A program made the position numbers and the translations under genes. 52,301 nucleotides of DNA from NCBI GenBank assembly GCA_030446005.1, contig JASUSP010000002.1:1-52301 (forward strand), in the 5' to 3' direction. Shown one piece after another: positions 28,192 through 51,755 of this stretch; the stretch's first letter is position 1; the number at the start of each line of letters is the position of its first letter. Below the pieces are notes generated by a model. That model searched no databases and was not told the origin of the DNA. It worked only from the letters and a program-made list of their open reading frames with translations. The stretch comes from Tepidanaerobacteraceae bacterium (GTDB taxonomy: Bacteria; Bacillota; Thermosediminibacteria; Thermosediminibacterales; Thermosediminibacteraceae).

Positions 28192-28209
28192 CTCCGGAAA
28201 AGATTAGCT

Positions 28210-28226
28210 TGCAATTAATATGCCAA
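28210..28226 (-). promoter_or_regulatory. Sigma-54 promoter of the uxaA-like operon
   Basis: In the minus direction TTGGCATATTAATTGCA: GG at -24 and GC at -12 are exactly 12 bases apart and both hexamers fit TGGCAY-N5-TTGCW. It directly precedes the lyase operon, opposite the end of the sigma-54 activator gene. Confidence 0.9.
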
Positions 28227-28285
28227 ACCCGAAAATCTTTAAAAAATGCCGTTCTCCTGATTGAAGACTCCAGGTGCGCTATTGC

Positions 28286-28324
28286 AAAAAAAAGCAGCTG
28301 ATGCAAATTGCATCAACTGCTTTT
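28286..28324 (-). terminator. Terminator of the sigma-54 activator, containing a likely activator site
   Basis: In the minus direction AAAAGCAG...CTGCTTTT encloses TTGATGCA/TGCATCA and ends in a T run, a good intrinsic terminator just after the activator stop. Its centre, 28301-28313, is ATGCAAATTGCAT, an ATGCA-N3-TGCAT palindrome about 77 bases upstream of the -24 element. A similar TTGCA-N3-TGCAA lies upstream of pdxA, so this is a candidate enhancer site as well. Confidence 0.7.
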
Positions 28325-28325
28325 A

Positions 28326-30212: not shown

Positions 30213-30300
30213 CATCGCAAAAACCCCTTTGGCATTTTTGGCGTTTGACCTTTTGTCCATTTAATTTCTTCATATCAAACGAAAAATCCTTTCAACAAAT

Positions 30301-30328
30301 AAAAAAAACCCCAAATATCTGGGTTTTT
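30301..30328 (-). terminator. Intrinsic terminator of pdxA
   Basis: In the minus direction AAAACCC, an 8-9-base loop and GGGTTTT followed by T, 13 bases past the pdxA stop. It separates pdxA from the activator gene. Confidence 0.75.
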
Positions 30329-30340
30329 CAATGACAAAAA

Positions 30341-31375: not shown

Positions 31376-31432
31376 TTCTTGTTTTCCCCTTTCTATATTT
31401 TTCATAACTGTAATAGCATAACTGGTAATAAA

Positions 31433-31448
31433 GCAAAATTTATGCCAA
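31433..31448 (-). promoter_or_regulatory. Sigma-54 promoter of pdxA
   Basis: In the minus direction TTGGCATAAATTTTGCT, with GG (-24) and GC (-12) 12 bases apart, a near-perfect TGGCAY-N5-TTGCW, about 58 bases before the pdxA ATG. Confidence 0.9.
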
Positions 31449-31489
31449 CCGTAAAAATTCACTATATCCGCTTTTTTATATTAAATGTG

Positions 31490-32581: not shown

Positions 32582-33052
32582 TCAATGACTTTCCATAAGC
32601 ATACATAACAGCTTCTTAATCATTCTTTTAACTTCAGCAATTCCCTCGCGCGTTTTTGCAGATACCGCAAAAATATTTTCCCTCATCACGCCAGCCTGGA
32701 TTAAAAACTTCTCCGCTCGATCTATTTTCGCTTCTTTTAAATCGATTTTATTTATAATTCCGACCACCGGTTTTTGAAAAACTGCGCAAAAACCAGCGGG
32801 CAATGAAGGCTTATCGGATGTAGCATCCTGTATTACTATAATAAGTGATGATTCAATAGCCATATTAATTACTATATAGTTAAACCTTCTTATCTCGATA
32901 TACTCCCCCGGAATATCTACATAATTTTCCTTAAACTCGATCATCTGCGTCTTTTTCGCTTCTTTGCCTTCTCCAAGAATTGCATTTATAAAGGTAGATT
33001 TTCCCGCCCCGCTAGGACCTATAACAATTATCCTCGCACTATTTTCGCCCAT
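32582..33052 (-). CDS. eutP: EutP/PduV-type GTPase of the microcompartment
   Basis: A small Ras-like P-loop protein of about 156 residues: RIIVIGPSGAGKSTFINAIL, DIPGEYIEIRR in the switch region and the specificity motif INKID. EutP/PduV proteins are linked to microcompartment positioning; an acetate-kinase activity has been reported for EutP, which would turn acetyl phosphate into ATP. I start at 33052, although its ribosome site is weak. It is the last gene of the cluster, behind a hairpin that follows eutH. Confidence 0.85.
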   Translation of the reverse strand: MGENSARIIVIGPSGAGKSTFINAILGEGKEAKKTQMIEFKENYVDIPGEYIEIRRFNYIVINMAIESSLIIVIQDATSDKPSLPAGFCAVFQKPVVGIINKIDLKEAKIDRAEKFLIQAGVMRENIFAVSAKTREGIAEVKRMIKKLLCMLMESH

Positions 33053-33068
33053 AAATAAAACCAAATTT

Positions 33069-33104
33069 AAAGACATAAAGCCCAATCTCGGGCTTTATGT
33101 CTTT
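33069..33104. terminator. Perfect 15-bp hairpin between eutH and eutP
   Basis: AAAGACATAAAGCCC and GGGCTTTATGTCTTT around a 6-base loop. In the minus direction the tail is TTTAAATTT, a weak T tract, so it may be a partial terminator or an mRNA-stabilising hairpin that lowers eutP expression. Confidence 0.7.
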
Positions 33105-33126: not shown

Positions 33127-34212
33127 CTAAATAACAGCTTTATCCCGCGGGGCAAATAAACTTGCAACCATAACCGCTGTAATTCCTGCCACTAACTTTC
33201 CTACTATCATCGGGAAAATCATTTCTTTCGCAACACCTGCGGTAAAACCTAGATGATCGCCAAAGGTAAATGCGGCACTCACCGCAAAGGCAACGTTCAA
33301 AACCTTTCCCCTATAATCCATGTCCTGCATGATTTGAAACATGGGTATATTGTTGGCGAGAGTCGCGACCATACCAGCCGCTGCCACATCGTTCATCCCC
33401 AACATCTTTCCTAGCGACATAAGCGGCTTTTTAAACACTTTTGTTATGAAATGCACCATCGGAAATGCACCAGCTAACATTATCGCTATAGCACCTATAA
33501 TCTGGATACCATCCCATATCGGCGCCATGCCGGGTATTACAACAATTCCCGTAAGGGTTTCCACTATAATCGCAGCGAGGGCTACGGTTATCATTATTAC
33601 AACGCCTTTCCCAAATATATTGAAACCGGAAATCATTTTTTCGGGAATTTTCCAGAGTCCCAAAGCAATTAGCACTGATACAATTATAATAGGGACTAAA
33701 TTTCTCAAAATCATATCCAATGGGAATCCAGCGGCGAGCCCTCCAGCAAAGCATCCTATGGGTATCGTAATCATACCTGCTAATATTCCGGTTGCAAGAG
33801 CCCTATGATCTTCTTTCTTTATAATTCCGAGCGCTACCGGTATTGTAAACACGATAGTCGGTCCCATCATAGCACCAAGTATAAGACCAGCAAAAAGACC
33901 TGCTTCCTTTGTTTGCGCAAGTTGCATCGCTAGAGGATAACCACCCATATCGTTTGCGAGAAGGGTGGTTGCAAACATCGCCGGATCTGCTCCTAGTGCG
34001 GTATAAACAGGTACTATTACAGGTTTTAATATATTGGCAAGGACAGGAGCAAAGGAAACCACTCCAACCATTGCTAAGGCAAGAGAACCCATTGCATTAA
34101 AGCCTTCTTCAAATTTTTCTCCAAAACCATATTTGTTGCCTAAAATTCTGTCTATAGCTCCTATTATCATAAAAATAACCATTATATTAACAATAATCTG
34201 GTTGATATTCAC
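33127..34212 (-). CDS. eutH: Ethanolamine transporter EutH
   Basis: A 361-residue membrane protein with about eleven helices and the EutH signature: GNKYGFGEKFEEGFNAMGSL, LLANDMGGYPLAMQLA and MGPTIVFTIPVALGII. It lets ethanolamine enter when it is scarce or protonated. It ends the main eut operon, 40 bases after the shell protein EutM1. Confidence 0.95.
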   Translation of the reverse strand: MNINQIIVNIMVIFMIIGAIDRILGNKYGFGEKFEEGFNAMGSLALAMVGVVSFAPVLANILKPVIVPVYTALGADPAMFATTLLANDMGGYPLAMQLAQTKEAGLFAGLILGAMMGPTIVFTIPVALGIIKKEDHRALATGILAGMITIPIGCFAGGLAAGFPLDMILRNLVPIIIVSVLIALGLWKIPEKMISGFNIFGKGVVIMITVALAAIIVETLTGIVVIPGMAPIWDGIQIIGAIAIMLAGAFPMVHFITKVFKKPLMSLGKMLGMNDVAAAGMVATLANNIPMFQIMQDMDYRGKVLNVAFAVSAAFTFGDHLGFTAGVAKEMIFPMIVGKLVAGITAVMVASLFAPRDKAVI

Positions 34213-34252: not shown

Positions 34253-34543
34253 TCATTCTTTTTTGTTCAGCTTGGGCAGTATATACTCCACATCCGAATG
34301 GGGCCTCGGAATGACATGAACTGCTATAAGTTCTCCCACCCTTTGAGCAGCAGCAGCCCCAGCATCGGTAGCGGCTTTAACCGCTCCCACATCGCCCCTT
34401 ACCATTACCGTGACCAGTCCTCCTCCTACATGTTCCTTTCCTATTAGATATACGTTTGCTGCTTTGACCATAGCATCGGCAGCCTCAATGGCGCCCACCA
34501 ATCCTTTTGTCTCTATCATTCCCAATGCAATTTGATCTGCCAT
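34253..34543 (-). CDS. eutM: Microcompartment hexamer shell protein EutM/PduA-like (copy 1)
   Basis: A 96-residue single-BMC-domain protein: [40 protein letters not shown] and the C-terminal [17 protein letters not shown]. It forms flat hexamers with a small pore for substrates. The ATG at 34543 has AAGGAGG eight bases upstream; a longer frame has none. Very similar to the copy at 42487, which suggests duplication inside the operon. Confidence 0.95.
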
Positions 34544-34583
34544 AAAACATCCTCCTTCAAAATTTATTTTCATTTATCAAAAG

Positions 34584-35453
34584 TTACAATATTAAGTCTA
34601 TACCGCTTTTTTGCTGTTCATATATCTTTTTGACTATTCCCGCTACATGTGCTCCCGCCTCAACCGGGTCAAGCCCTTTTTTGTGAATGTTCGAAACGAC
34701 ATTTCTCTGCGATTCAACGGTATCACTCCTGGGTCTCCAGCACAGATACACGCTCATGCTTTTTGCCGTAACCAATCCGGGCCTTTCTCCTATGAGTTCT
34801 ACCACAACGTCGGGTTTTAAAACCTCTCCCACGTCGTTCATCACGGGAACCCTGCCGTACCTTATGAAAAACGGTCTTCCTAGGCTAAGGCCGTATGACT
34901 TAATACCTTCCATAAAGGATGCCAAAAAGTCTTCCGCATTTTCTTCTATTGCTTTAGAGCTCAATCCATCTACAACAATCACCTGCACGTTAGGACTTTC
35001 AGGGCAATTTTTCTTTATAGTCATCTTTGCTTCTTCCGAAAGAATTCTCCCCAAGTCAGGCCTGGTAAGGTACTCATCCTTATTTTTTGCTTCCGTAGTT
35101 ACAGAAAACAGATTTAACTTATTTAAAAATTCCTCCGACACTTCGCTGAAAACCGCATCCATAGCCGCTGCATGATCGGCTCTAAACCTCAACCACGGTA
35201 TGGTTAAATACCTCGGCCCACTCCGACCTATGCATATCCTTGCAGGTGTCGACTTTTTTAGGATTTTTAGCGCCTCTTCATCCAAAGGATTTTTTATAAA
35301 AATCTTATCGTACAAACTGTATTCCGATATATCTGAAAACTCTCTTATTTCTTCATCACCATTGTTTTCTTTGTTTACAACAACACCCTCTTCCCTCAAT
35401 TTCTGCAAAACTTGGCTGACAATGCTCTCTAACAAAGCCGGATCACAATTCAT
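34584..35453 (-). CDS. eutC: Ethanolamine ammonia-lyase small subunit, copy 1 (partner of the variant EutB1)
   Basis: 289 residues. After a helical, charged N-terminus that may act as a shell-targeting segment (LLESIVSQVLQKLREEG) comes the EutC core: TPARICIGRSGPRYLTIPWL, FRADHAAAMDAVF and the B12-tail region VELIGERPGLVTAKSMS. It binds coenzyme B12 at the EutB/EutC interface. Eight bases after eutB1, so the two form their own lyase. More diverged in its middle than copy 2. Confidence 0.93.
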   Translation of the reverse strand: MNCDPALLESIVSQVLQKLREEGVVVNKENNGDEEIREFSDISEYSLYDKIFIKNPLDEEALKILKKSTPARICIGRSGPRYLTIPWLRFRADHAAAMDAVFSEVSEEFLNKLNLFSVTTEAKNKDEYLTRPDLGRILSEEAKMTIKKNCPESPNVQVIVVDGLSSKAIEENAEDFLASFMEGIKSYGLSLGRPFFIRYGRVPVMNDVGEVLKPDVVVELIGERPGLVTAKSMSVYLCWRPRSDTVESQRNVVSNIHKKGLDPVEAGAHVAGIVKKIYEQQKSGIDLIL

Positions 35454-35460
35454 CTGTCTC

Positions 35461-36846
35461 TCACCCCCTCCCTAATGGTTCTCTTTTAAAGAATATTGAA
35501 GGATCACCGGCTATATCGGTCAACTTCCCATCCTTCATTATGCCCATCTCTTCCAGCCACTTCTCAAACTCCGGCGCCGGACGCAACCCGAGCAACTCCC
35601 TCAGCGTAACATCGTCATGGTAACTAGTATCCTGATAGCTCAACATGCAGTCATCGCTGCCCGGAACTCCCATATAGTAGTTGGCACCCGCTAATGCCAA
35701 AAGCATTATGGCATTCTCCTGATCGTTCTGATCCGCCTTCATATGATTTGTATAACACGGTGCCATACCCATAGGAAGTCCCAAAAGTTTACCCATAAAA
35801 TGATCCTCTAGACTTGCTCTAATTACCTGTTTCCCGTCATAAAGAGTCTCTGGCCCGATAAAACCCGATACGTTATTTACCATGAAGGGTCTGTATCTCC
35901 TCGCAAAACCGTAAGTTCTCGCTTCTAATGTCTGCATATCGGCTCCATGGTGTGCTCCAAGCGACAACTCAGAACCCTGACCCGTTTCGAAGTACATCAG
36001 GTTGGGCCCACCCGCACAACCTTTCTTTTTTATCATTTCAAAAGCTTCATCCAAAAGTTTGGCTGATATGCCAAATTCCTTGTTGCAGCTTTCCGTTCCC
36101 GCCACACTCTGGAAAAATACGTCTACCTTTGCTCCCGCCTCTACCGCCTTCATCTGCGTGGTAATATGGGACAAAACGCAATTCTGAGTGGGGATAGCCC
36201 ACTTTTCTATAAATTCGTGGGTTGCATTCATTAATCTTATCGTATTCTCAACGGTGTCCTCATTCGGATTCACTCCAATAACCGCATCTCCCGAACCGTA
36301 AGATAGCCCTTCCATGATGGACGCCAGAATTCCCTCTACGCTGTCGTTCGGATGATTGGGCTGTATCCTAAAAGAAAGGGTTCCTGGCAATCCAATAGTG
36401 GTGCGCGCAGTCGTAGCGATTTTAATCTTACTTGCCGCATACACGAGATCCATATTAGACATAATCTTGGCTACCGCTGCAGCCATCTCCGCAGTAAGGC
36501 CTGGCGAAATTCTCTTTATATCCTCGCCCGTTGTATGATGGCTCAATATGTATTCCCTCAACTCCATTACCGTCATGTTTTTTATTTCCCTGTATACCCC
36601 TTCGCATATGCCGTCATCTATTACCCTGGTTACTTCATCCTCTTCATACGGAACCACGGGGTTTTTCCTCAAATCTTCAAGAGTCAGCTCGCTCAATACC
36701 CTCTTTGCTGCAATTCGTTCCTCATTGCTTTCCGCCGCGATACCCGCTAATATGTCTCCAGCCTTTTCCTCACTTGCTTTTGCGAGGACCTCCTTAACAC
36801 TCTTAAACACATACGTCCTCCCAAACAGTCTAGTCTTCAGTTGCAA
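35461..36846 (-). CDS. eutB: Ethanolamine ammonia-lyase large subunit, variant copy EutB1
   Basis: A 461-residue TIM-barrel catalytic subunit. Counted against E. coli EutB from memory it aligns without gaps to position 362. Arg160 and Gln162 (SFRIQPNHP), Asn193 (GVNPNED), Glu287 (YFETGQGSE) and Phe329 (SGFIGPE) are kept. Position 362, an Asp in E. coli that contacts the substrate, is Ala here (MGMAPCYTNH against MGCDCCYTNH), and 361 and 363 change too. EutB2 in the same operon keeps Cys361-Asp362. So this lyase probably has another substrate or altered activity. It overlaps the small gene upstream by a few bases. Confidence 0.93.
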   Translation of the reverse strand: MQLKTRLFGRTYVFKSVKEVLAKASEEKAGDILAGIAAESNEERIAAKRVLSELTLEDLRKNPVVPYEEDEVTRVIDDGICEGVYREIKNMTVMELREYILSHHTTGEDIKRISPGLTAEMAAAVAKIMSNMDLVYAASKIKIATTARTTIGLPGTLSFRIQPNHPNDSVEGILASIMEGLSYGSGDAVIGVNPNEDTVENTIRLMNATHEFIEKWAIPTQNCVLSHITTQMKAVEAGAKVDVFFQSVAGTESCNKEFGISAKLLDEAFEMIKKKGCAGGPNLMYFETGQGSELSLGAHHGADMQTLEARTYGFARRYRPFMVNNVSGFIGPETLYDGKQVIRASLEDHFMGKLLGLPMGMAPCYTNHMKADQNDQENAIMLLALAGANYYMGVPGSDDCMLSYQDTSYHDDVTLRELLGLRPAPEFEKWLEEMGIMKDGKLTDIAGDPSIFFKREPLGRG

Positions 36847-37124
36847 TCTTTTTCCCCCCTTTTCTCTGTTAACTTTTCCTTTATCATTTTTATAATTCTA
36901 TTGCATACTTCCTCATCCGTTATCCCGTTCTTCTCGAAGCATTCTTTTAAGTATCCTTTCATTTCTCCGTCATCGTCAACTCTGACTATTTTTATATTAG
37001 TGCTCTTTATTAAATCCTGAGCTCCGGGCAATATGATAGTGCCTTTGGTAATAAACAATACCTTGCTTCCTTCGTAAAAACACCTTTCAATATCCTTGCT
37101 CGTCAGAATGTGCTTCTCGCCCAA
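36837..37124 (-). CDS. Small microcompartment-locus protein with an EutQ/EutT-like N-terminal module
   Basis: About 95 residues. I start at TTG 37124 because AGGAGGGG (37130-37137) lies just before it; the longer frame would translate that site. Residues near 15-50 (KVLFITKGTIILPGAQDLIK, then TNIKIVRVDDDG) match the short module with a TPxAR motif that opens EutT and EutQ and that also ends the flavoprotein at 39365. No cupin or adenosyltransferase domain follows; the rest is a charged helix. Function unknown. It lies between pduT and eutB1 and overlaps eutB1. Confidence 0.75.
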   Translation of the reverse strand: MGEKHILTSKDIERCFYEGSKVLFITKGTIILPGAQDLIKSTNIKIVRVDDDGEMKGYLKECFEKNGITDEEVCNRIIKMIKEKLTEKRGEKDCN

Positions 37125-37167
37125 AAAATCCCCTCCTCTCCGGGAAAACACTTTTCTCTACACCAAC

Positions 37168-37725
37168 CTAAATCAATTTTTCCAATACATCCTCCGAAAT
37201 ATATGGTATTACGGCAAAATTGAGAATCATTCCCTCTTCCCTAACATTATCCTTGCCCGCATTTACAGCCGACTCCACAGCACTTACATCTCCAATCATC
37301 GTCACAAAGGATTTCCCGCCCAGTCCCACTGCCGGCCTAATCTCGATGAGATTCACTCCTCCCGCTTTTACCGCCGCATCCGCTGCATATATGCAAGCCG
37401 TCACACTATATGTCTCTATAACTCCCAGCGCCCATTGCCTTTCAACATTTTTTATTTCTGTGGTTGCCTCGAGGGCCAAAAGCACGTTCTCGTGCACATT
37501 AGGTATCACGACATTATCCACCATGAATTCTCCAAGTATCTCCTTCCCTCTCTCAACAGAACTGTTTACAGCTTCCACATCACCTCCGATTAATATTAGA
37601 AACTTCCCGGGGCATATGGTCCTCGCCACAAAAAGTTTAACGGGAGCCACCTTGACCATTCCATCAGCTGCTTCGATCCCCCTGGCAATGCTGATCGACT
37701 CTACTATTCCTATCGCTTTGCTCAT
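37168..37725 (-). CDS. pduT: Tandem-BMC shell protein PduT with Fe-S pore cysteine
   Basis: A 185-residue protein with two BMC domains: SKAIGIVESISIARGIEAAD and ALGVIETYSVTACIYAADAA. Cys38 (ARTICPGKF) sits where Citrobacter PduT binds a [4Fe-4S] cluster at the trimer pore. This shell protein is thought to pass electrons between the lumen and cytosol together with PduS. It is two bases from pduS, so the pair is co-translated. Confidence 0.95.
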   Translation of the reverse strand: MSKAIGIVESISIARGIEAADGMVKVAPVKLFVARTICPGKFLILIGGDVEAVNSSVERGKEILGEFMVDNVVIPNVHENVLLALEATTEIKNVERQWALGVIETYSVTACIYAADAAVKAGGVNLIEIRPAVGLGGKSFVTMIGDVSAVESAVNAGKDNVREEGMILNFAVIPYISEDVLEKLI

Positions 37726-37727
37726 AA

Positions 37728-39050
37728 TTATTCCTCCCCTTTTATTACTACAAAATCTTCGGTAACTTCTGCTACAATGCCCGGAATACTAGCGTGGATA
37801 TCCGCTCCCAGCGAGTTTTCGTCAACTTTTGCCAATACATCTCCTTCGTTCACCTTGTCTCCCCTCTGCACAACCGGTATAGCTTTTGCACCGATATGCT
37901 GCTTCGTATAAATCTTTGCTTCAGCAGTTTTCAATTTCTCATCTATAAATTCGGGTTTCTTTTCGTATTTGTCTAAACTCAGCCGCGTCAACAACCTCGA
38001 AGTCGGAATTCTTCTCAAATCCCTATTTTGCCTTGCAGAATATTCTCTTTTTTCCGCAGAGTATTTCACTCCTTTTTCCGCAAATACGCCTTTCAGGTAC
38101 TGATTTACCCTCCTGGGCGACAAACCCTGCGGACAAGAATACATTTCGCATACTCCGCACTCCGAACAAATTAATGCGCTTTTCAAAAACCTTTCTTCTA
38201 AGTTGAAGGCAAGAGAAATCATAATCTTGTGAGGCTCTAATTCATGTCCTAAAAGATACCTGGGACATTGATCAGTACAATACCGGCACTGAATGCAGCA
38301 GGTCCGCGCCTTCCTCAAAATCTGCTCGATAGATATCATCTTTTTGCTTACAACCGGATGGTTTTTTTCAAATACCAAAATTCCCCCGCTCGTCTTCGTT
38401 ATCACATCATCTTTCGATATGATCTTTCCCATTGCGGGCCCGCCATCTATGATTACCTTTTCTTCATATTCGATTCCAAGCTTTTCCAAAATACTGCTGA
38501 CTTTCATGCCAATCGGAACCTTAACCGTAACGGGTTTTTCTATATCTCCGGAAACCGTAATAAATTTTTCCGTCACAGGTTTTTCTTCAAAAAGTGCGTT
38601 GTACACGTTGTAAACTGTTTCTACATTATTTACCACTGCACCCACCATTAAAGGTATTCCGCCCGGAGGAACAATCTTGCCAGTTATCTCGTAAACCAAA
38701 ACTTGCTCGTCGCCCGCCGGGTAGAAATCCCCGGCATAAAATATTCGGATATCAAGATTTTCGGACTTTACAAACTCTTCCAATTTTCCAAAAAGATGCT
38801 TGTATTTGCTCTTAACGCCGATGAATGCTTCTTTTGAATTTGTATAATCCTTTAGTGCCGCAAGTCCCCTTGCAACCCTTTCCGGAAATCTTTTTAAAAT
38901 TTCCTTTGTGACCCACAAAAGCGGTTCGCATTCTATGCCGTTTAATATGTAGTGTAGTATTCCTTCTCTTTTTAATTTTGCATACGTAGGGAATCCCGCT
39001 CCCCCGGCCCCGACTACACCTTTTTCCTTTAAGATTTTAGTCATTTCCAT
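37728..39050 (-). CDS. pduS: PduS-type flavin/Fe-S cobalamin reductase (RnfC-like)
   Basis: About 440 residues. The N-terminal GVVGAGGAGFPTYAKL is the RnfC-type NADH/FMN site; two 4Fe-4S motifs follow (CIQCRYCTDQCPR and CSECGVCEMYSCP), and a C-terminal lipoyl-like domain ends the chain. PduS reduces cob(II)alamin for the adenosyltransferase and may connect with the Fe-S pore of PduT. The ATG at 39050 has GAGG six bases upstream; the frame could start two codons earlier at TTG. Confidence 0.93.
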   Translation of the reverse strand: MEMTKILKEKGVVGAGGAGFPTYAKLKREGILHYILNGIECEPLLWVTKEILKRFPERVARGLAALKDYTNSKEAFIGVKSKYKHLFGKLEEFVKSENLDIRIFYAGDFYPAGDEQVLVYEITGKIVPPGGIPLMVGAVVNNVETVYNVYNALFEEKPVTEKFITVSGDIEKPVTVKVPIGMKVSSILEKLGIEYEEKVIIDGGPAMGKIISKDDVITKTSGGILVFEKNHPVVSKKMISIEQILRKARTCCIQCRYCTDQCPRYLLGHELEPHKIMISLAFNLEERFLKSALICSECGVCEMYSCPQGLSPRRVNQYLKGVFAEKGVKYSAEKREYSARQNRDLRRIPTSRLLTRLSLDKYEKKPEFIDEKLKTAEAKIYTKQHIGAKAIPVVQRGDKVNEGDVLAKVDENSLGADIHASIPGIVAEVTEDFVVIKGEE

Positions 39051-39094
39051 TTCCAACCTCGATCATCTCCAAATCACGTATTTTATTGCTTCAG

Positions 39095-39364: not shown

Positions 39365-40195
39365 CTACACCATCCAATTTAACGTAATTTTATAATCTTT
39401 TATCATATCCCTGGCCGCAGGCGTGATTATGCACTTACTCGGCAATTTGATTTTTCGTATGCCCTCGCCGTAGAGCTTTTGAATAATTTCCCCCGTAATC
39501 AACTTTGAATCTATTGTAATTTCGGTCGATTTATTCTCATACTCACACTCTTTTTTGCTCAGCAAATTATTCATCTCACTGCTTCCACAAATCAAGCTTT
39601 CTACTTCCTCCGACATTTTTTGCGCTTTACAGAATATAATTCCAAATTCCTTTAGCTTTCGGACTATCTCATCTATAACTTTAAAATACCCTTGATTCTT
39701 TACAGCGAAGGGTATGGAATCTTCACAAGCCAAAATTTTTTTTCCTGCCAATATGGCAACAGCAACTGCCTCGGTAGCAACCGTGTCCCTTATGCCAAAA
39801 GCAATTTTTGCAGCCGTATTTTGAGTCAAAGTCGGCAGAACGACAATCCTGGATTTATCAATAGCTTCATACAAACCATCACAACAAACTTCTTCCAACC
39901 GTGCATTCTTTTTTAACTTTTCTTGCGGCAACACCTTTTTTGCCATCTCGGAAAATACAGCATAGAGCTTGTATTTACCGCTCAACTTACCAAGTTCCTC
40001 CGCCACCGCGTCCAGCGAACCGGTCCCACCAGTAAAAACAACGAGTATATTCCCCGGGCTTTCCTCCTTGCCCGGCGTTTTGTATTCCTCTTCTTTTGAG
40101 GCTTCACTGTAGCCTGCTTTTTTCAGTACCTCCGAAACTATTCTCCTTACCAGCTCTTCAATATACCTTTGTTCTTCTTCTTTCAGAATTTCCAT
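39365..40195 (-). CDS. Microcompartment-associated flavoprotein with C-terminal TPAAR module
   Basis: 276 residues. The N-terminal helix (EEQRYIEELVRRIVSEVLKK) looks like a shell-targeting peptide. The core (ILVVFTGGTGSLDAVAEELG and VVLPTLTQNTAAKIAFGI) resembles the HFCD/PPC-decarboxylase flavoprotein fold that binds FMN. The last 35 residues carry IKLPSKCIITPAARDMIKDY, the module seen in EutT and in the small gene at 36837. Its reaction is unknown; a flavin role beside PduS is possible. Overlaps eutJ by 38 bases. Confidence 0.75.
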   Translation of the reverse strand: MEILKEEEQRYIEELVRRIVSEVLKKAGYSEASKEEEYKTPGKEESPGNILVVFTGGTGSLDAVAEELGKLSGKYKLYAVFSEMAKKVLPQEKLKKNARLEEVCCDGLYEAIDKSRIVVLPTLTQNTAAKIAFGIRDTVATEAVAVAILAGKKILACEDSIPFAVKNQGYFKVIDEIVRKLKEFGIIFCKAQKMSEEVESLICGSSEMNNLLSKKECEYENKSTEITIDSKLITGEIIQKLYGEGIRKIKLPSKCIITPAARDMIKDYKITLNWMV

Positions 40196-41656: not shown

Positions 41657-42457
41657 TTACCCCTCCGATTTATTGTATCTTCCCGCCCTCAACCAGCACA
41701 TCATAATATACACTGCACTGCTCAATCTATTTAAAGCTTTTATTATATCCGCCCTTATGAATCCCTCGTTAGGATCAAAAAACGCCTCGCATGCATAAAG
41801 TTCAACTTCCCTTATCTGAGTCCTAATTAAATTTAATTCAGCCATCAATTCTCCCATCTTGTAATCGGGCATAAAATGCTCTACGCCTATTGAACCTTTA
41901 GGGTTATGGGAAATTCTCCTTATCTCGTCTTCCTTAAAACCCAAAATATTTAAATCTTCCACCGGCTCCGAAAGCACTTCGGCCCTCATTAGCTGCCGCA
42001 CTGTTTTTAATATCTCTTCCAAATCTTCTGCTAACTTCTTAACTTTATTCTTTTCCGCCAGCACTTGCGCTTTTATGATAAATGCCTCTAGAGAATCTAT
42101 CTTTCCCCTTAATTTTACCCGCGGGTGAATTTTGGGAACCAATTTATTGCCGTAAAGATGCGTAAAGCCTTCCGGCTTCTCATTCGTCTTTATATTTGAA
42201 ACTAAAACTTCATATCGCCCCGGATTACCACCAGCGCCATCCTCAGCTCCTTTTTTGCACCCAACTTCATCTTTTGCCTTTGCATTTGCACTTTCTTCTT
42301 TTTTAGTATCATCAGCCACAATTATTTCGATTTTATTTTCATTCAGATAACTCCTGGCCGCTGGGGTTAAGATGGTTCCCGGCGAAATGACAAACTTATT
42401 CACCGGGCCCATCTTTCTTAATTCATTTCTTATGTCAATTTCTGTAAGCACCTTCAT
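41657..42457 (-). CDS. eutT: ATP:cobalamin adenosyltransferase EutT (metal-independent type)
   Basis: Makes coenzyme B12 for the ammonia-lyases. 266 residues: an N-terminal module with ISPGTILTPAARSYL, a spacer, then the adenosyltransferase helix bundle (KIHPRVKLRGKIDSLEAFII, GELMAELNLIRTQIREVELY). The His-X11-Cys-Cys-X2-Cys metal site of enterobacterial EutT is absent; only isolated cysteines are seen. It therefore looks like the Firmicute class described for Listeria that needs no metal ion. Paired functionally with PduS. Confidence 0.9.
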   Translation of the reverse strand: MKVLTEIDIRNELRKMGPVNKFVISPGTILTPAARSYLNENKIEIIVADDTKKEESANAKAKDEVGCKKGAEDGAGGNPGRYEVLVSNIKTNEKPEGFTHLYGNKLVPKIHPRVKLRGKIDSLEAFIIKAQVLAEKNKVKKLAEDLEEILKTVRQLMRAEVLSEPVEDLNILGFKEDEIRRISHNPKGSIGVEHFMPDYKMGELMAELNLIRTQIREVELYACEAFFDPNEGFIRADIIKALNRLSSAVYIMMCWLRAGRYNKSEG

Positions 42458-42816: not shown

Positions 42817-44307
42817 TTATGAATTTATTCTTTTGAGCACTTCTTCCACGATACTTTTGATGATGTCGGCGTTCAGTTCTTTAGATACACCTGCCGCATT
42901 GCACTCATTTGGCTTATTTTCTTTTGCCAAAAGGCTGGCCTTCAATTCGTCCAAAGTCCGCACTCCGTAGGCAACCCTCTTTATATTCATCAAGTGCATC
43001 GGCCCTATATTGTCCGAAGTAGCATTTCCTCCCCATGTTCCGCAACCTAATGTTAGCGAAGGAACCAACCCCGTAGTAGCTCCTATCGCACCAAATGAAG
43101 ACGGCTGGTTTACCAGGATTCTAAATGCAGGTTTTTCCAAAGCGAACTTCTTTATTATTTCTTCATCGTTCGAATGGATGGACATGGAATGCCCCAGCCC
43201 ACCAAGATTTAATAGCTCGATGCAAAGCTGGCAGGCTTCTTTCCAATCCTCAACTTCGTAATAAGCCAGTATCGGACTGAGTTTTTCTTTTGACAGAGGA
43301 TATTGCTTACCAACCCCAGAAAGGGGAGCCAGCAGGACCCTCGTGCCATTCGGAACCTTTATGCCAGCTTTTTCCGCTATATCTACCGCCGATTTTCCAA
43401 CTATGGCAGGATTTAAGCTCCCATCGTACCTAAACGCATATTTTTCCAGCTTATAAATTTCTTCCGGATTTAAAAAGACTCCGCCGAGCTCTGTAAAAGT
43501 ATTCTTTACCTCCTCCGCAATGCACCTGTCGCATATTACCGCCTGCTCGGAAGCACATATCGTTCCGTTATCAAAAGTTTTGCTCGCGATTATAGCCTTT
43601 ACTGCATCCCTTACATTAGCACTTCTTTCAATATATGCTGGCACATTCCCAGGACCAACGCCGTATGCTGGCTTGCCGGCACTATACGCCGCCTTAACCA
43701 TATCCGAACCACCGGTAGCCAATATAAGATTCACATCCGGATGCTTCAGCAGTGTTTGAGTCGCTTCAAGGGTAGGGGTAGATATGCATCCTAAAATCCC
43801 CTCAGGCGCCCCTGCCCTTATCGCCGCTTTATGCATTATTTCAACTGCCTGCGAAGTGCAGTCAGCTGCTCTGGGGTGCGGGCTGAAAACTATTGCATTT
43901 CTTGCCTTCACGGAAATTAGCGACTTAAATATCGCAGTAGAAGTGGGGTTAGTAGTAGGCGTCAGCGCTGCAATCACACCCACAGGCTCTGCAATTTCGT
44001 AAACTTTGTTTACTTCATCCTTCCTGATAAATCCCACAGTTTTCAAATCCTTTATCGTCTCATATACCCTCTTTGCAGCGAATAAATTCTTGATTATTTT
44101 ATCTTCGTATACCCCGATATCGGTTTCTTCAACCGCTATTCGTGCGAGCCATTCGGAAGCTGCTGCAGCTTCATCAGCCATAGCTTTGACTATTTCGTCA
44201 ATCTTCTCTTGCGGGTAAGTATCCAGAATCTTTTGCGCTTCTTTTGCTTTTGCTACCAAATTTCTAACTTCTTGTATTGCCAACAAATCCTTGTCGATCT
44301 TCATCAT
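42817..44307 (-). CDS. eutE: CoA-acylating acetaldehyde dehydrogenase EutE
   Basis: Converts acetaldehyde, CoA and NAD to acetyl-CoA and NADH in the compartment lumen. The 496-residue protein has PTTNPTSTAIFKSLISVKAR, NAD-site residues near VGPGNVPAYIERS, and the catalytic Cys251 (KTFDNGTICASEQAV). The C-terminal NADIIKSIVEEVLKRI is amphipathic and may target it to the shell. Preceded closely by the EutK-like gene. Confidence 0.96.
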   Translation of the reverse strand: MMKIDKDLLAIQEVRNLVAKAKEAQKILDTYPQEKIDEIVKAMADEAAAASEWLARIAVEETDIGVYEDKIIKNLFAAKRVYETIKDLKTVGFIRKDEVNKVYEIAEPVGVIAALTPTTNPTSTAIFKSLISVKARNAIVFSPHPRAADCTSQAVEIMHKAAIRAGAPEGILGCISTPTLEATQTLLKHPDVNLILATGGSDMVKAAYSAGKPAYGVGPGNVPAYIERSANVRDAVKAIIASKTFDNGTICASEQAVICDRCIAEEVKNTFTELGGVFLNPEEIYKLEKYAFRYDGSLNPAIVGKSAVDIAEKAGIKVPNGTRVLLAPLSGVGKQYPLSKEKLSPILAYYEVEDWKEACQLCIELLNLGGLGHSMSIHSNDEEIIKKFALEKPAFRILVNQPSSFGAIGATTGLVPSLTLGCGTWGGNATSDNIGPMHLMNIKRVAYGVRTLDELKASLLAKENKPNECNAAGVSKELNADIIKSIVEEVLKRINS

Positions 44308-45763: not shown

Positions 45764-46693
45764 TTACAAATTCATTAATTTTACACCGCTAGCTTTTGCA
45801 TCGTAGATCTTCTTTACAATGCTGGCAACATGGGCGCCAGCTTCCACCGGCGGCAATCCCCCATCATGGATATTAGAGACCAACATCCTATCGGATTCTA
45901 TCGTTTTCTTATTGGGTTTGTAACACATATAAGCGCTCATGCTCTTTGCAGTGACCAAGCCCGGCCTTTCTCCTATCAATTCCACGAGGACTTCAGGTTG
46001 CAACAATTCTCCCACTTCGTCCATAACCGCTACCCTTCCGTACTTTATGAAGAAAGGCTTTCCGATGCTCAGCCCATAACTTTTAAGAGCCTGTAAAAAC
46101 GACGGTATGAAGTCCTTAGCATTAGCCTCAATGGCAGTAGAACTCAGTCCATCCACAACTATCAACTGAACCTGCGGTGACTTGGGACACTCTTTCAAAA
46201 TCTTCTCCTTCGCCTCTTCTGAAAGCTTTCTTCCCAGATCGGGTCTTGTTAAATATTCATCCTTATCTCTTACTACTGTCTGAACTGTAAACAGTCCCAA
46301 TTCTTCAATGAATGCCGGATCCACATCTTTCATAACCGCATCTTTCGCCGCGGCAAGATCCGCCCTGAACCTCAACCACGGCTCCACCTTATACCTTGCT
46401 CCAGCTCTCCAAAGGCCTATCCTCGCAGGCGTATTTTTCTTAATTCTCATAAGCCCTTCTCTGTCAGCCGGCTCGGGTATAAGCGCCCATTCTTCCAACT
46501 TTATTTCACAAAGGTCCTGCAGGTACTCCCCCCCACAGGTGGCATCAGCTTTTTCTTTTGCCGAACATACATCTCCCTTTTTTTCGACATCCGGCTTATC
46601 TTTTTTGTCCCCTTCCTGTCTCATCAGTTTTAATTCCTTAAGAACGCTTTCCACTATTCCCTGTATATCCTTTTCACTCAGCATCTTTTTCAC
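45764..46693 (-). CDS. eutC: Ethanolamine ammonia-lyase small subunit, canonical copy 2
   Basis: 309 residues. A charged N-terminal helix (KDIQGIVESVLKELKLMRQ) and a Lys/Asp linker, then the EutC core with TPARIGLWRAGARYKVEPWL, FRADLAAAKDAV, VELIGERPGLVTAKSMSAY and VSNIHDGGLPPVEAGAHVAS. Works with EutB2 three bases upstream. Slightly longer than copy 1 because of the linker. Confidence 0.95.
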   Translation of the reverse strand: MKKMLSEKDIQGIVESVLKELKLMRQEGDKKDKPDVEKKGDVCSAKEKADATCGGEYLQDLCEIKLEEWALIPEPADREGLMRIKKNTPARIGLWRAGARYKVEPWLRFRADLAAAKDAVMKDVDPAFIEELGLFTVQTVVRDKDEYLTRPDLGRKLSEEAKEKILKECPKSPQVQLIVVDGLSSTAIEANAKDFIPSFLQALKSYGLSIGKPFFIKYGRVAVMDEVGELLQPEVLVELIGERPGLVTAKSMSAYMCYKPNKKTIESDRMLVSNIHDGGLPPVEAGAHVASIVKKIYDAKASGVKLMNL

Positions 46694-46695
46694 CC

Positions 46696-48060
46696 CTACT
46701 TCAAGAATATGGTGGGATCGCCCGCTTTTGAGGTCAACTTACCGTCTTTCATCAAGCCCATATTTTCCATCCACTTTTCGAACTCTGGAGCGGGCCTCAA
46801 ACTCAAAGTTTCCCTCAAAGCAGCGATATCGTGATAGCTGGTGCACTGGTAATTCAGCATTATGTCATCTCCCATAGGAATTCCCATGAAATAGTTGCAT
46901 CCAGCTGCCGTAAGCAAAACCGCAAGGTTCTCAATATCGTTCTGATCTGCCTTCATATGGTTGGTGTAGCACGCATCACAGCCCATGGGAATGCCAGTAA
47001 GTTTCCCCATAAAGTGATCTTCCAATCCTGCTCTTATTACCTGCTTGCTATCGTACAGGTACTCTGGTCCGATGAATCCTACTACCGTATTTACCAAAAG
47101 CGGCTTGTACCGTTTGGCAAGGCCGTAACATCTCGCTTCCATAGTCACCTGGTCGGCTCCGTGATGAGCATCGGCCGAAAGCTCCGAACCCTGTCCTGTT
47201 TCAAAGTACATCAAATTCGGTCCTCTGCCAGTGCTATGCTTTTTAATGAGTTCATGAGCTTCATCGAGCATACTTACCGATATTCCAAAGGCTTCATTCC
47301 CTTTTTGACTACCTGCAATACTCTGGAAAACAACACCTACTGGAGCTCCCTGCTGTATGCATTTCATCTGCGTCGTCACGTGTGCTAATACGCTGTGTTG
47401 TGCCGGGATCTTCCATTTTTCGATAAATTCATAAAGTGCCCACAGCAACCTGCTAACGCTATCCACATCGTCTATGCAAGGATTTATTCCTATAACCGCA
47501 TCTCCCACTCCAAAACTCAATCCTTCCATCACTTCCGCCATTATTCCATCCACATTGTCCGTGGGGTGATTCGGCTGTAACCTCGCCGAAAGAGTCCCGG
47601 GAAGTCCTAGTGTAGTGTTGCAATGAGACACTCTCCTTATCTTTGCTGCCCCATATATCAAATCCAAATTCGAGCTTATTTTCGCCACCGCAGCCACCAT
47701 TTCGCTGGTTAAGCCCTGGCTCACCCAATCTATATCGTCGGAAGTCGTCTTGTCGTCTAATATATACTCTTTTAGCTGGCCTACAGTCCAACTCTTTATC
47801 TTGCTGTAAACGTGCTCGTTCACCTGGTCCTGAATCACCCTGGTGACCTCATCCTCTTCATAGGGCACCACCGGGTTATTTCTCAAATCCTCCAGGGTCA
47901 AATTCGCCAGGACGTACTTTGCCGCTATTCTTTCTTCTTCGGACCTTGCCGCTATACCCGCCAAAATATCCCCTGATTTTTCTTCATTTGCCTTGGCAAG
48001 AACTTCTTTTACATCCTTAAAGCTATAGACAGTCCCTCTCACTTTTGCTTTAAGAATCAC
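46696..48060 (-). CDS. eutB: Ethanolamine ammonia-lyase large subunit, canonical copy EutB2
   Basis: 454 residues, the length of classical EutB. The substrate pocket is conserved: Arg160 and Gln162 (SARLQPNHP), Asn193 (GINPCID), Glu287 (YFETGQGSE), Phe329 (VVGFIGPEYLY) and Cys361-Asp362 (MGCDACYTNH). It should convert ethanolamine to acetaldehyde and ammonia by a B12 radical mechanism. Directly after eutA, whose product reactivates it. Confidence 0.97.
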   Translation of the reverse strand: MILKAKVRGTVYSFKDVKEVLAKANEEKSGDILAGIAARSEEERIAAKYVLANLTLEDLRNNPVVPYEEDEVTRVIQDQVNEHVYSKIKSWTVGQLKEYILDDKTTSDDIDWVSQGLTSEMVAAVAKISSNLDLIYGAAKIRRVSHCNTTLGLPGTLSARLQPNHPTDNVDGIMAEVMEGLSFGVGDAVIGINPCIDDVDSVSRLLWALYEFIEKWKIPAQHSVLAHVTTQMKCIQQGAPVGVVFQSIAGSQKGNEAFGISVSMLDEAHELIKKHSTGRGPNLMYFETGQGSELSADAHHGADQVTMEARCYGLAKRYKPLLVNTVVGFIGPEYLYDSKQVIRAGLEDHFMGKLTGIPMGCDACYTNHMKADQNDIENLAVLLTAAGCNYFMGIPMGDDIMLNYQCTSYHDIAALRETLSLRPAPEFEKWMENMGLMKDGKLTSKAGDPTIFLK

Positions 48061-48083: not shown

Positions 48084-49532
48084 TCAATGCGAAAATACTA
48101 GTGTCTTTAAAATCACCGGAACTACACTGCCGTTATAAAGTGGCTCTCCTATGTCTATGTAATCACCCTCCTTTACAGAAATCTCGTCTATAGAAATTAC
48201 ATCGTACAGACTGCCGCAAAGGTTTTTTAACACGCTTCCCAAGGCCTTTCCCAGATCGCCCTCGCAAATTACAATCAAAGGCCCCCGTTGACTTGCTATT
48301 CTATACGCCGCAAATATTGATTCCGCTAAGTTTTTTATTTTCTCAAATTTTGCATTATTAAGGTCCGGTATCAACACTGCGGGAATAATCTGTCCTTCCG
48401 CATTATTAAAAGTATCCATTTTCCGCCTTACCTCTTCCATGATCTCATTTTTACTGCCGTAGGGATTGTCAATTCTAAATACTGGAATATTCCTCAGAGG
48501 AAGGACCTTCGGATCAGATATATAGATAGTAGACCCGCTCAATTCGGTCGTATGCACCCCTGCACCTATTACGGTAGCGTAAATCGTTTCTGAAGGTTTC
48601 ACTACCTTGTAAGGAAGTTTTGAAATACCCTTTTTTAATTCGAAGGCCAGCAAAGGACCTACATCCTGAAATCTTGTCGCCAATAAAACATCCCGCGAAT
48701 ATTCATCTTCATAAAACAACCTTCCCACTCCGCCGGAGAAAGTTACTACATCAATTTTCATCGGTTCCTTAGGCAAAACTCCGATTGCAAGTTTTTCCGC
48801 CAGAGGATTTGGCTTAAAAATCAGAATACTCAACAAGGCTTCCGCCAGTCTCCTTGCAAATTCTTGCAAATCGTCAAAGCTCACCCTATCGCCTTCACCG
48901 GCAACAAGTCTCATTTCATCCAAAATGATGCGGCCATAATGGGAAACATTTTTCAACCTTATCTCGGTACAATTAGTCAGTAGTTTAATCAACCTTCCGC
49001 CTATATTTGCACAAAAAGTACTCAAAAGCTTTCCTTCTCCAAAAACAGAAATATTGGTAGTACCCCCCCCTATATCCACATTGCAGACATTATTTTTCAT
49101 TTCAGAGGATAATTTCGCTGCTCCTGCCCCCACTCCGGCAAGATAAGCCTCCAAATTAGGCCCTGCAGTAGCTACCACAAAGGTCCCCGCCAGCTTTGAA
49201 ATTGCATCTAATATATTCTCTGCGTTTTCCTTTCTTGCCGTTTCGCCGGTAATGATAACGGCACCAGTTTTTATTTCGCTCGGGTTAACGCGCGCTTTTT
49301 CGTATTCTTTTTCGATGATGTCTTTCAAACCAATAAAATCGATGGTCTTTTCATCGATCAGCGGCGTAAAATAAATATCGCTTCTGTACAAAATATTTTT
49401 TTCAATGATTTCTATCTTCGGCGCGTTAAAGCTCCCAGCAATATTTTTTATTTTCAACTTGCTGATGATTAAAGAAGTCGTAGAAGTGCCTATATCTATT
49501 CCTACACTCAATATTTCCTCTACATTCGCCAC
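48084..49532 (-). CDS. eutA: Ethanolamine ammonia-lyase reactivating factor EutA
   Basis: 482 residues of the actin-like ATPase fold: SVGIDIGTSTTSLIISKLK, ITGETARKENAENI and CNVDIGGGTTNISVFGEG. EutA swaps damaged B12 out of the lyase with ATP. Only one copy is seen for the two lyases. The start is GTG at 49532 with AAGGGG eight bases upstream. First gene after the attenuator leader. Confidence 0.95.
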   Translation of the reverse strand: MANVEEILSVGIDIGTSTTSLIISKLKIKNIAGSFNAPKIEIIEKNILYRSDIYFTPLIDEKTIDFIGLKDIIEKEYEKARVNPSEIKTGAVIITGETARKENAENILDAISKLAGTFVVATAGPNLEAYLAGVGAGAAKLSSEMKNNVCNVDIGGGTTNISVFGEGKLLSTFCANIGGRLIKLLTNCTEIRLKNVSHYGRIILDEMRLVAGEGDRVSFDDLQEFARRLAEALLSILIFKPNPLAEKLAIGVLPKEPMKIDVVTFSGGVGRLFYEDEYSRDVLLATRFQDVGPLLAFELKKGISKLPYKVVKPSETIYATVIGAGVHTTELSGSTIYISDPKVLPLRNIPVFRIDNPYGSKNEIMEEVRRKMDTFNNAEGQIIPAVLIPDLNNAKFEKIKNLAESIFAAYRIASQRGPLIVICEGDLGKALGSVLKNLCGSLYDVISIDEISVKEGDYIDIGEPLYNGSVVPVILKTLVFSH

Positions 49533-49702: not shown

Positions 49703-50293
49703 TCATATTTTCATAATTTCTTCGAATTTATTACTAATTATTATATTTTTAGCTATCTCTACCATGCTTTTTCTCATATTCATACTTAATTTCTGCATTC
49801 TTTTGTAGGCTTCTTTTTCATTTAAATTGTATTTTTCCATTATAATTCCCTTCGCTATCTCGATAATCTTTCTGCTTTCAAGTTTAACCTTTAATTCAAC
49901 ATTTTCTTCTTTCAACTTTTTATAATTAAACCACTTCGAAATAGCCATATTTAGTGCGGGTATAATATCTTCTTCCTTAATTGGCTTTACTAGATACCCA
50001 AAAATGCCCCCCACCGATGAAGCCTGTTCCACAAGTTCGTACTGGCTGTAAGCTGTAAGCAATACCACTGGACAAATCTCCTCTTCATTAATCAACTTAG
50101 CCGCCTGAAGTCCATCCATGTCCCCCGGCATCTTTATATCCATCAATACCACGTCCGGCTTTAAACTCCTCGCCATATTCAAGGCCGTTTTCCCGTCCGC
50201 GGCCTCTCCCACCACCAAACAACCCTTTTCTTCCAAAATCTCCCTTACATCCATCCTTATTATAGGTTCATCGTCGACGATTAAAACCCGCAC
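49703..50293 (-). CDS. eutV: ANTAR response regulator EutV
   Basis: About 196 residues. Receiver domain with Asp7-Asp8 (LIVDDEPIIRMDV) and phospho-acceptor Asp52 (VVLMDIKMPGDMDG), then a coiled linker and the ANTAR RNA-binding domain (AKGIIMEKYNLNEKEAYKRM). EutV binds hairpins in eut leaders to stop termination when phosphorylated by EutW. I start at GTG 50293 with AGAGGGG upstream, just after the eutW stop; the longer frame overlaps eutW. Confidence 0.94.
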   Translation of the reverse strand: MRVLIVDDEPIIRMDVREILEEKGCLVVGEAADGKTALNMARSLKPDVVLMDIKMPGDMDGLQAAKLINEEEICPVVLLTAYSQYELVEQASSVGGIFGYLVKPIKEEDIIPALNMAISKWFNYKKLKEENVELKVKLESRKIIEIAKGIIMEKYNLNEKEAYKRMQKLSMNMRKSMVEIAKNIIISNKFEEIMKI

Positions 50294-50330
50294 CTCATAC
50301 ACCCCTCTTACAATTCCGGACTGTAAAATT

Positions 50331-51755
50331 TTATTTACTAGTGTAGGGAAACATGACTTCGACCACCACACCGTTTTCATTGTGTATATTGATATAACCT
50401 TTAAGATCTTCTTCCACCAGCGTCTTTATAATATTCAATCCGAGGTTTTTTGACTTTTCGATCGAAAAATCCCTTTTTAAACCCACGCCGTTGTCCCTAA
50501 CCATTAAACATATGCTCTTGTCAAATTCCTTCAGAATTATAGCTATCTCTCCCTCATTTCTTCCCACAAACGCATGCTCGATGGCATTGTGAATAAGTTC
50601 ATTTATGATGAGTGCCAGGGATGTTGCCTCCCTTGATGTGAGCTTTATCGGGCTGCAATCTATACTTATGTTTATATTCTTCTGGGGATCTATCATCAAA
50701 GAAACCATTTCTACAATCTTTCTTATCATGTTATCTATATCAACGTACTCCATTTCTTCCTTTGATAGGATGTCGTGAACCACCGCGATGCTGAGTATTC
50801 TGCTTATGCTATCGCTAAAAGCGTTTTTAGCCTTTCTCGATTTAATTCTCCTCGCCTGAATCCTCAACAAGCTAGCCACCGTCTGAAGGTTGTTTTTAAT
50901 CCTGTGATGTATCTCTTTAATTACGACCGACCTTCTCATCAACTCTTTTTCCTTTTCCCTTATCTCAGTTATATCTCTTATGAGCATCAGCGCGCCCGCC
51001 GTTCCATCAGGACTGTTCAGGGGCACCGAAGTAATGGCTATGTTTAAACCATTTATCTTAGATTCTATATACATCTGCTCCGCCAAAAAATCGTCCCTTA
51101 TATCCAACTCGGAAATAATATCTATAATCCTTTTCCCTCCAAATTCCTCTCCAAAAAAACCCATTCTGTTGAAAAGATCCCTGGCAGCATTGTTGTAATA
51201 TGTAACTTTTCCATTTTTATCAATTATCAAAAGCCCATCGGGCAGTATATCCGAAATTCTACCCTCCGCAAAGGCCAATTTGAAAAGGGTCTCCGACAAA
51301 TGTTCCGTCGTCTCTATAAGCTCTTTTACCCTTTTCTCCTGAGAAACCTGTTCGGTGATATCCTGCTCCATAATAAGCGTGCCTATCGTGCGCCCGTTCC
51401 TAGATGTTATGGGAACCACGCTCTGTTTTATGGGCACCCCTTCCTGACTTATTCCCCTCATCCCTATTGTCGGCAAGCCGGTCTGCTGAGTCCTGATAAC
51501 GGCAGGTTCGTTTTGTTTTAAAGCCAGCTGCCCAACGACGGAAAAACGGTAAAGGGATTTTGCCGTCCTGGGTTTTGCCTCTGCCACCACGATTGCCGCA
51601 TCCGGATCTCTCGTTATGCAATCTATGAATATGTCGGCCTGAGTCAAATCAGCTACGATCTGAATAACTTCCGAAAGCCTCTGGATGATCTTTATCTCTT
51701 CGTGATTCAAATCGCTATACTTTCTGCACAATTCCTCTATTATTTTCTCACCCAT
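50331..51755 (-). CDS. eutW: Sensor histidine kinase EutW
   Basis: 474 residues, soluble. An N-terminal PdtaS-type sensor region (residues 1-140, ending RTIGTLIMEQDITEQV), a PAS domain (FAEGRISDILPDGLLIIDKN, DITEIREKE), then a HisKA_2 dimerisation region with the phospho-His in VIKEIHHRIKNNLQTVA and an HATPase domain (ELIHNAIEHAF, VRDNGVGL). In Firmicutes EutW senses ethanolamine and phosphorylates EutV. Follows eutS. Confidence 0.93.
   Translation of the reverse strand: MGEKIIEELCRKYSDLNHEEIKIIQRLSEVIQIVADLTQADIFIDCITRDPDAAIVVAEAKPRTAKSLYRFSVVGQLALKQNEPAVIRTQQTGLPTIGMRGISQEGVPIKQSVVPITSRNGRTIGTLIMEQDITEQVSQEKRVKELIETTEHLSETLFKLAFAEGRISDILPDGLLIIDKNGKVTYYNNAARDLFNRMGFFGEEFGGKRIIDIISELDIRDDFLAEQMYIESKINGLNIAITSVPLNSPDGTAGALMLIRDITEIREKEKELMRRSVVIKEIHHRIKNNLQTVASLLRIQARRIKSRKAKNAFSDSISRILSIAVVHDILSKEEMEYVDIDNMIRKIVEMVSLMIDPQKNINISIDCSPIKLTSREATSLALIINELIHNAIEHAFVGRNEGEIAIILKEFDKSICLMVRDNGVGLKRDFSIEKSKNLGLNIIKTLVEEDLKGYINIHNENGVVVEVMFPYTSK

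Follow-up and report, generated by a model that had tools for sequence, protein, structure and literature searches.

The eut operon analysed here encodes two large subunits of ethanolamine ammonia-lyase (EAL), and one of them, EutB1, is by its residues a member of a large, unrecognised part of the EutB family. In this branch Asp362 is replaced by Ala, which is followed by Pro363 (AP-type EutB or AP-EutB). Choline or its N-methylated relatives, not ethanolamine, are the probable substrates of the AP branch. On balance we favour the reading that EutB1 and EutC1 form an AdoCbl-dependent, AP-type lyase acting on an N-methylated ethanolamine, i.e., choline, N,N-dimethylethanolamine (DMAE), or N-methylethanolamine (MMEA). 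The window is the whole stretch of 52,301 nucleotides from a Tepidanaerobacteraceae bacterium.

EutB1 and its operon

The eutB1 gene starts with TTG and has 461 codons (36846..35461 including the stop codon). Residues are numbered as in E. coli EutB, confirmed against eutB of MG1655 (L216). The first-pass annotation aligned EutB1 without gaps to E. coli EutB up to residue 362; the gap-free alignment extends to the C-terminus and covers all 453 residues. As that annotation had also read, R160, Q162, N193, E287, and F329 are retained, C361-D362-C363 of E. coli has become M361-A362-P363, and EutB2 of the same operon keeps the Asp (C361-D362-A363). These two are the only EutB copies in the genome and are 67% identical. 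EutB1 exceeds the cut-offs of PF06751 (695.7 vs. 25 bits) and PRK15067 (669.2 vs. 554 bits) and matches only EutB among the NCBIfam models; curated models call it plain EutB. Its AlphaFold2 model (mean pLDDT 92.7) compares with E. coli EAL (3abo_A) at TM 0.97, rmsd 1.2 A, and 58% identity, and the EAL barrel fold is thus predicted to be present.

Table 1. Genes of the eut operon in the window
Feature	Coordinates	Strand	Evidence
eutB1, AP-type EutB (A362-P363)	35461..36846	minus	PF06751 695.7 bits; all 11 clade-diagnostic residues
eutC1, small subunit, starting 7 bases past eutB1	34584..35453	minus	NCBIfam PRK05465 EutC 299.8 bits
second EutM-type shell protein	34253..34573	minus	orthologous position in L152, L153
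eutH transporter	33127..34212	minus	NCBIfam EutH 601.5 bits
eutP GTPase-like protein	32582..33085	minus	sequence; matching position in L152-L155
small gene immediately upstream of eutB1	36837..37151	minus	resembles TIGR02536 C-terminal piece (weak, 22.7 bits)
pduT-like shell protein and pduS-like oxidoreductase	37168..39056	minus	conserved gene order
eutT cobalamin adenosyltransferase	41657..42457	minus	PRK15020 139 bits, under cut-off
eutE acetylating acetaldehyde dehydrogenase, common downstream enzyme	42817..44307	minus	NCBIfam TIGR02518 682.6 bits
eutC2, partner of eutB2	45764..46693	minus	profile match; EutC tree
eutB2, canonical Asp362 EutB	46696..48060	minus	profile match; alignment
eutA, sole reactivase of the operon	48084..49532	minus	best EutA model 483.9 bits, under its cut-off
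eutV and eutW regulator/sensor pair	49703..51755	minus	sequence; homologues in relatives

The claim that one EutA and one shell serve both lyases holds for the gene content of the window, which has a single eutA and a single set of shell genes. The small gene upstream of eutB1 has a counterpart preceding AP-eutB in L152-L155 and L249. It carries a module of about 45 residues (the C-terminal piece of TIGR02536, pattern roughly I-x-P-x-A-x-D/S-x-I/L) that occurs in three places: this free gene, the N-terminus of EutT, and the C-terminus of a 276-aa protein (39365-40195). Across the order of the window the free gene sits before AP-eutB. By sequence impression, the N-termini of EutC1 and EutC2 resemble short amphipathic targeting helices, and the genes downstream of the operon at 27880-31462 (minus strand), for a UxaA/SAF-like small protein, a sigma-54 PrpR-type regulator, and a PdxA2-type dehydrogenase, are a set typical of four-carbon sugar-acid breakdown. 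An Rfam scan found no family in the eut region and CRISPR repeats at 136-630 only, where the left end of the window holds an array of at least eight repeats (CRISPR-DR2).

A conserved branch of the EutB family

We searched 84,980 GTDB species genomes with a DNA pattern for FMGKLxGxxMGxxxCYTNH. At codon 362 the second base was any but A, so that the pattern covered 13 amino acids and excluded Asp and others whose codons have A in the middle, such as Glu, Asn, and His. All of the 82 loci matched by the pattern read G-[M/I/V]-A-P-CYTNH. Among sampled proteins, Ala362-Pro363 is present in 69/69 members of the AP branch and in 0/62 Asp362 proteins, and in a tree of 132 EutBs a single branch (SH-aLRT 99) parts these two groups. 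It had been asked of EutB1 homologues whether residues 361-363 are random or conserved in a clade; residue 361 is Met, Ile, or Val, residues 362 and 363 are fixed, and A362-P363 is a lineage marker, not noise.

AP loci are found in Clostridia (Desulfosporosinus, Sporomusa, Geosporobacter, Alkaliphilus, Flavonifractor, Ca. Formimonas warabiya) and outside them in Synergistota, Propionibacteriaceae, Nitriliruptorales, Treponema, Desulfobacterium, and termite-gut deltaproteobacteria (Myxococcota in the record taxonomy). Several of the genomes are MAGs that look gut-associated (termite/cockroach type, as judged by isolate names and Smac51): L022, L068, and L096 (Propionibacteriaceae/Actinomycetes), L098 (Treponema), and L030, L037, L055, and L061 (deltaproteobacterial). 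Their spread over several phyla suggests a common substrate or gene transfer. A third type that lacks Asp362 is seen in L230 (genome G157), where a EutB starting near 11770 has Gly362 and reads M-G-C-V at 361-364. It retains D406 and Q376, groups with the AP proteins in the tree, and shares its locus with a canonical EutB. Full-text searches of the open-access literature, which leaves most subscription journals outside, returned no description of the AP branch, and nothing relevant on EAL in connection with N-methylethanolamine or with MttB and choline.

Changes in the substrate pocket

Asp362 is the amine-site residue expected of an ethanolamine-specific EAL; it is missing in EutB1 and is Ala in all 69 AP proteins. 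In the E. coli EAL structures (3abo series) this residue contacts the amino group of the substrate; a literature search on Asp362 found nothing relevant. Ten other columns split the Asp362 and AP groups as fully as D362A does: T325N, V327S, Y334T, G345D/S/N, C363P, N376Q, L379A/G, C388A/S, T406D, and T412D. EutB1 has the AP state at all 11 (N325, S327, T334, S345, A362, P363, Q376, A379, A388, D406, D412), and with A362-P363, N325, T334, Q376, and D406 all there it is assigned by sequence to the AP-type subfamily.

R160, Q162, N193, and E287, which serve the hydroxyl side and catalysis, are invariant across the 69 AP and 62 Asp362 proteins, as are V326, F329, and L402. In the models, strand 6 of the barrel holds residues 325 and 327 or ends just before them, and residues 361-363 close strand 7. 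In the E. coli structures, R160, Q162, and N193 hold the hydroxyl group and Q162, E287, and D362 hold the amine. The amine side of the AP pocket (strands 6-7) thus seems to have been rebuilt while the remaining active site was kept. One candidate for a relocated acid is D406, which does not vary among the AP proteins.

Genes found near AP-eutB

Neighbours of AP-eutB include MttB-family methyltransferases, corrinoid proteins (PF02607+PF02310), an APH/homoserine-kinase-like protein, EamA transporters, and PocR-AraC regulators. Of 41 AP and 43 Asp362 loci, 19 and 0, respectively, have an MttB-family methyltransferase no more than 10 kb away (Fisher p 7.4e-8, which overstates independence because the sample holds a few near-duplicate loci and eight of the 19 linked AP loci are from Desulfosporosinus). 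Within the same distance an MthK-like kinase is found at 13 of the 41 AP and none of the 43 Asp362 loci, and an EAT-like amino-acid permease at none and 16, respectively. The MttB-linkage trait changes seven times inside the AP branch of the tree. Sixteen MttB-bearing genomes have both EutB types on separate loci, with linkage at 10 AP and no Asp362 loci, a matched comparison that controls for chance in MttB-rich genomes. The linkage is seen again in an independent random phylum draw (L224, L226, L231, L246; 398 genomes, at least 90% completeness requested). Note that MttB is absent from half of 50 AP genomes; the MttB/MthK linkage is frequent but missing in most members and is no defining trait of the clade. 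In the genome of the window, which is 83% complete, neither MttB nor MtmB nor MthK is found, near EutB1 or elsewhere, so the linkage evidence comes from relatives only. Matches to the CutC model elsewhere in G000 are under the cut-off (best 570.9 vs. 1050).

At ten of the AP loci (L133, L138, L139, L141, L163, L197, L224, L226, L231, L246) the nearby MttB is of the pyrrolysine type with an in-frame TAG (Pyl-MttB), and those scanned (L138, L139, L141, L163, L224, L226, L246) exceed the cut-off of TIGR02369, the trimethylamine (TMA) methyltransferase model. The vicinity of the S. acidovorans AP locus has a choline/ethanolamine kinase (PF01633) and a PylS-like synthetase, and that of S. malonica has pylB/C/D-like genes. 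The single locus L142 of Ca. Formimonas warabiya DCMF contains both a canonical and an AP eutBC, separated by a few kb.

Possible substrates

The earlier suggestion of a lyase with another substrate has good support from the fixed clade, the coordinated pocket changes, and the linkage to genes of choline and methylamine demethylation. AP-EutBC would still work by radical chemistry and bind the hydroxyl group through the same residues, but would have lost the carboxylate that holds the free ammonium group. Choline, DMAE, or MMEA would then be cleaved to tri-, di-, or monomethylamine and acetaldehyde, and the acetaldehyde would enter the shell and EutE/PduL in common with ethanolamine breakdown by EutB2C2. 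In the window, where the diagnostic residues shared with the relatives point to a shared substrate, the AP enzyme would feed the common eutE/pduL; with the demethylation genes missing from the genome, the amine there may be unused or serve as a nitrogen source.

Two forms of this explanation can be distinguished. In the first, which we hold tentatively, choline is demethylated before AP-EutBC acts: MthK/MthB would yield DMAE, a divergent Pyl-MttB would possibly yield MMEA, and AP-EutBC would cleave either to di- or monomethylamine and acetaldehyde. The E. limosum system MthB/C/A/K is reported to convert choline to its phosphorylated form and then to demethylate it, giving DMAE (PMC12155760). 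The AP-linked neighbours match these proteins in kind (MttB-like, corrinoid, pterin-binding, and serine-kinase-like), and the kinase is taken as MthK-like by family resemblance and co-occurrence. Sporomusa malonica and Ca. F. warabiya, named as choline users with mthK-mthB (PMC12155760), both have AP-EutB, and homologues of the AP-linked kinase there are 65% and 60% identical. MthC-MthK-MthB genes adjoin AP-eutBCA in 8/8 Desulfosporosinus loci examined, and Pyl-MttB, MthK, and a non-Pyl MttB occur jointly in L133, L139, L224, and L231. DMAE is, like TMA, a tertiary amine, although its acceptance by Pyl-MttB is supposed, and five Pyl-MttB loci (L138, L141, L163, L197, L246) have no MthK nearby. 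Ca. F. warabiya DCMF turns choline into acetate and monomethylamine (PMC8163858), the outcome that an MMEA lyase would be expected to give, but its authors explain the monomethylamine by a route through glycine betaine and sarcosine. In two published studies of its quaternary-amine metabolism the ethanolamine genes are unmentioned. The canonical monomethylamine methyltransferase MtmB is present without the dimethylamine methyltransferase MtbB in seven AP genomes (G062, G069, G078, G086, G094, G096, G098). Growth of Sporomusa sphaeroides on DMAE (PMC6315149) was considered as further support and set aside, as it could not be tied to AP-EutB: among nine Sporomusa genomes AP-EutB is seen in S. 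malonica and S. acidovorans only, and G463 has an Asp362 EutB.

In the second form, which is doubtful, AP-EutBC is itself a choline trimethylamine-lyase, the B12 counterpart of CutC, and converts choline to TMA and acetaldehyde. The ten Pyl-MttB loci and the absence of MtbB from 42/50 AP genomes speak for it. However, the majority of AP-linked Pyl-MttBs fall into two divergent clades (565-647 bits vs. 663-760 for the scanned non-adjacent Pyl-MttBs) and may therefore act on an amine other than TMA, and the amine formed from choline by DCMF is monomethylamine. A genuine CutC coexists in 9/50 AP genomes, where choline cleavage by AP-EutBC would be redundant; this divergence and coexistence agree better with the demethylation-first route. 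The idea that CutC and AP-EutB are mutually exclusive was rejected on the same nine genomes. None of the MtbB and MtmB genes adjoins AP-eutB, and they leave the released amine undecided.

It is somewhat unlikely that AP-EutB is still a lyase of ethanolamine (or 2-aminopropanol), a low- or high-affinity isoenzyme with altered affinity. In the window it has the operon, EutH, EutA, and the shell in common with EutB2, and Q162 and E287, the other amine contacts in the E. coli structure, are invariant. An affinity variant is hard to match with an ancient and invariant Asp-to-Ala change accompanied by Pro363 and nine more co-varying columns, with the linkage to methylamine genes, and with the missing EAT-like permease.

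EutC partners and self-sufficiency

EutB1 had been described as having its own EutC. The eutC1 gene is indeed present, but EutC1 does not belong to a co-evolved partner clade. It groups with Asp-type EutCs of its own order, including EutC2, and therefore looks like a local duplicate of the latter. EutCs adjoining AP-EutB require at least six label changes on the EutC tree, and in 11 tandem loci of the order eutB(D)-eutB(AP)-eutC (L132, L141, L151, L158, L160-L162, L171, L202, L203, L207) one EutC serves both EutBs. As these partners are polyphyletic and shared, EutC co-evolution was rejected as an argument for a separate substrate.

The tandem loci would fit AP-EutB acting in mixed hexamers with canonical EutB and modulating it. 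This is improbable, as AP-EutB is the sole EutB in four genomes of at least 99% completeness from the 398-genome phylum draw (G120, G131, G382, G243), inside eut loci. The same is true of four deltaproteobacterial MAGs from termite guts (G070, G076, G089, G093). In the near-complete genomes it thus works without a canonical partner, and the suggestion of a regulatory paralogue finds no support there; from its sequence context, the AP branch is a catalyst rather than a regulator. AP-only loci have eutC, eutA, eutL, and eutT, and several also have eutE, implying a C2-aldehyde product fit for an acetylating aldehyde dehydrogenase. A degenerate or inactive paralogue, suggested by the loss of one substrate contact, is hardly credible for a full-length, strongly conserved protein of several phyla with catalytic residues invariant in 69 members.

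AP-eutBC is mostly without shell genes in the relatives from Flavonifractor, Intestinimonas, Butyricicoccus, and Nitriliruptorales. In the gut Clostridia L146 (Flavonifractor plautii ATCC 29863), L147, L165, and L166 it stands alone; eutVW-like regulators are mostly present, and the surrounding DNA covered here is for the most part free of shell genes.

Comparison with known systems and implications

AP-EutB is a variant of a known enzyme family, and its substrate is a prediction. Like EutBC of E. coli (3abo) and Listeria (2qez), it has the whole fold, a gap-free alignment, the conserved residues at 160, 162, 193, 287, and 329, a EutC partner, EutA, EutT, and a shell. Unlike them, the AP branch is fixed for D362A, C363P, T325N, V327S, Y334T, T406D, and other changes and keeps other genomic company. 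The reaction proposed for AP-EutB, i.e., an N-methylated ethanolamine converted to a methylamine and acetaldehyde in a shell, is similar to that of CutC/CutD in GRM1/GRM2 microcompartments. CutC, however, is a non-homologous glycyl-radical enzyme with an activase, whereas AP-EutB uses AdoCbl. The phosphocholine:THF methyltransferase MthBCAK of Eubacterium limosum (PMC12155760), whose relatives by kind adjoin AP-eutB in many loci, takes a methyl group off and leaves DMAE with the C-N bond of the ethanolamine unit intact, unlike the cleavage proposed for AP-EutB. In the microcompartment locus taxonomy of Axen et al. 2014 (PMC4207490), with its EUT2 and EUT3 loci, every locus with EAL subunits counts as ethanolamine-utilising, and the passages considered here draw no line between AP and Asp362 types; its EUT2D has a PocR regulator, and in L143 AP-eutBCA is likewise followed by a PocR-AraC regulator.

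If AP-EutBC converts choline to TMA and acetaldehyde, it would be a second, B12-dependent enzyme class for this reaction, unrelated to CutC. Its hosts would then include both environmental anaerobes and gut bacteria, Flavonifractor plautii among them, and its annotation as ethanolamine ammonia-lyase would explain why it has been overlooked. More generally, if an N-methylated ethanolamine is the substrate, the annotated ethanolamine ammonia-lyases of many anaerobes would belong to the breakdown of choline and methylated amines. They would provide the step after MthB (the fate of DMAE) and a possible CutC-independent source of methylamine, and A362-P363 would be a simple sequence marker for reannotating genomes and microcompartments. 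The AP branch would also be a natural experiment in which an AdoCbl radical enzyme swaps its amine by remodelling of strands 6-7 while the other parts of the active site stay fixed.
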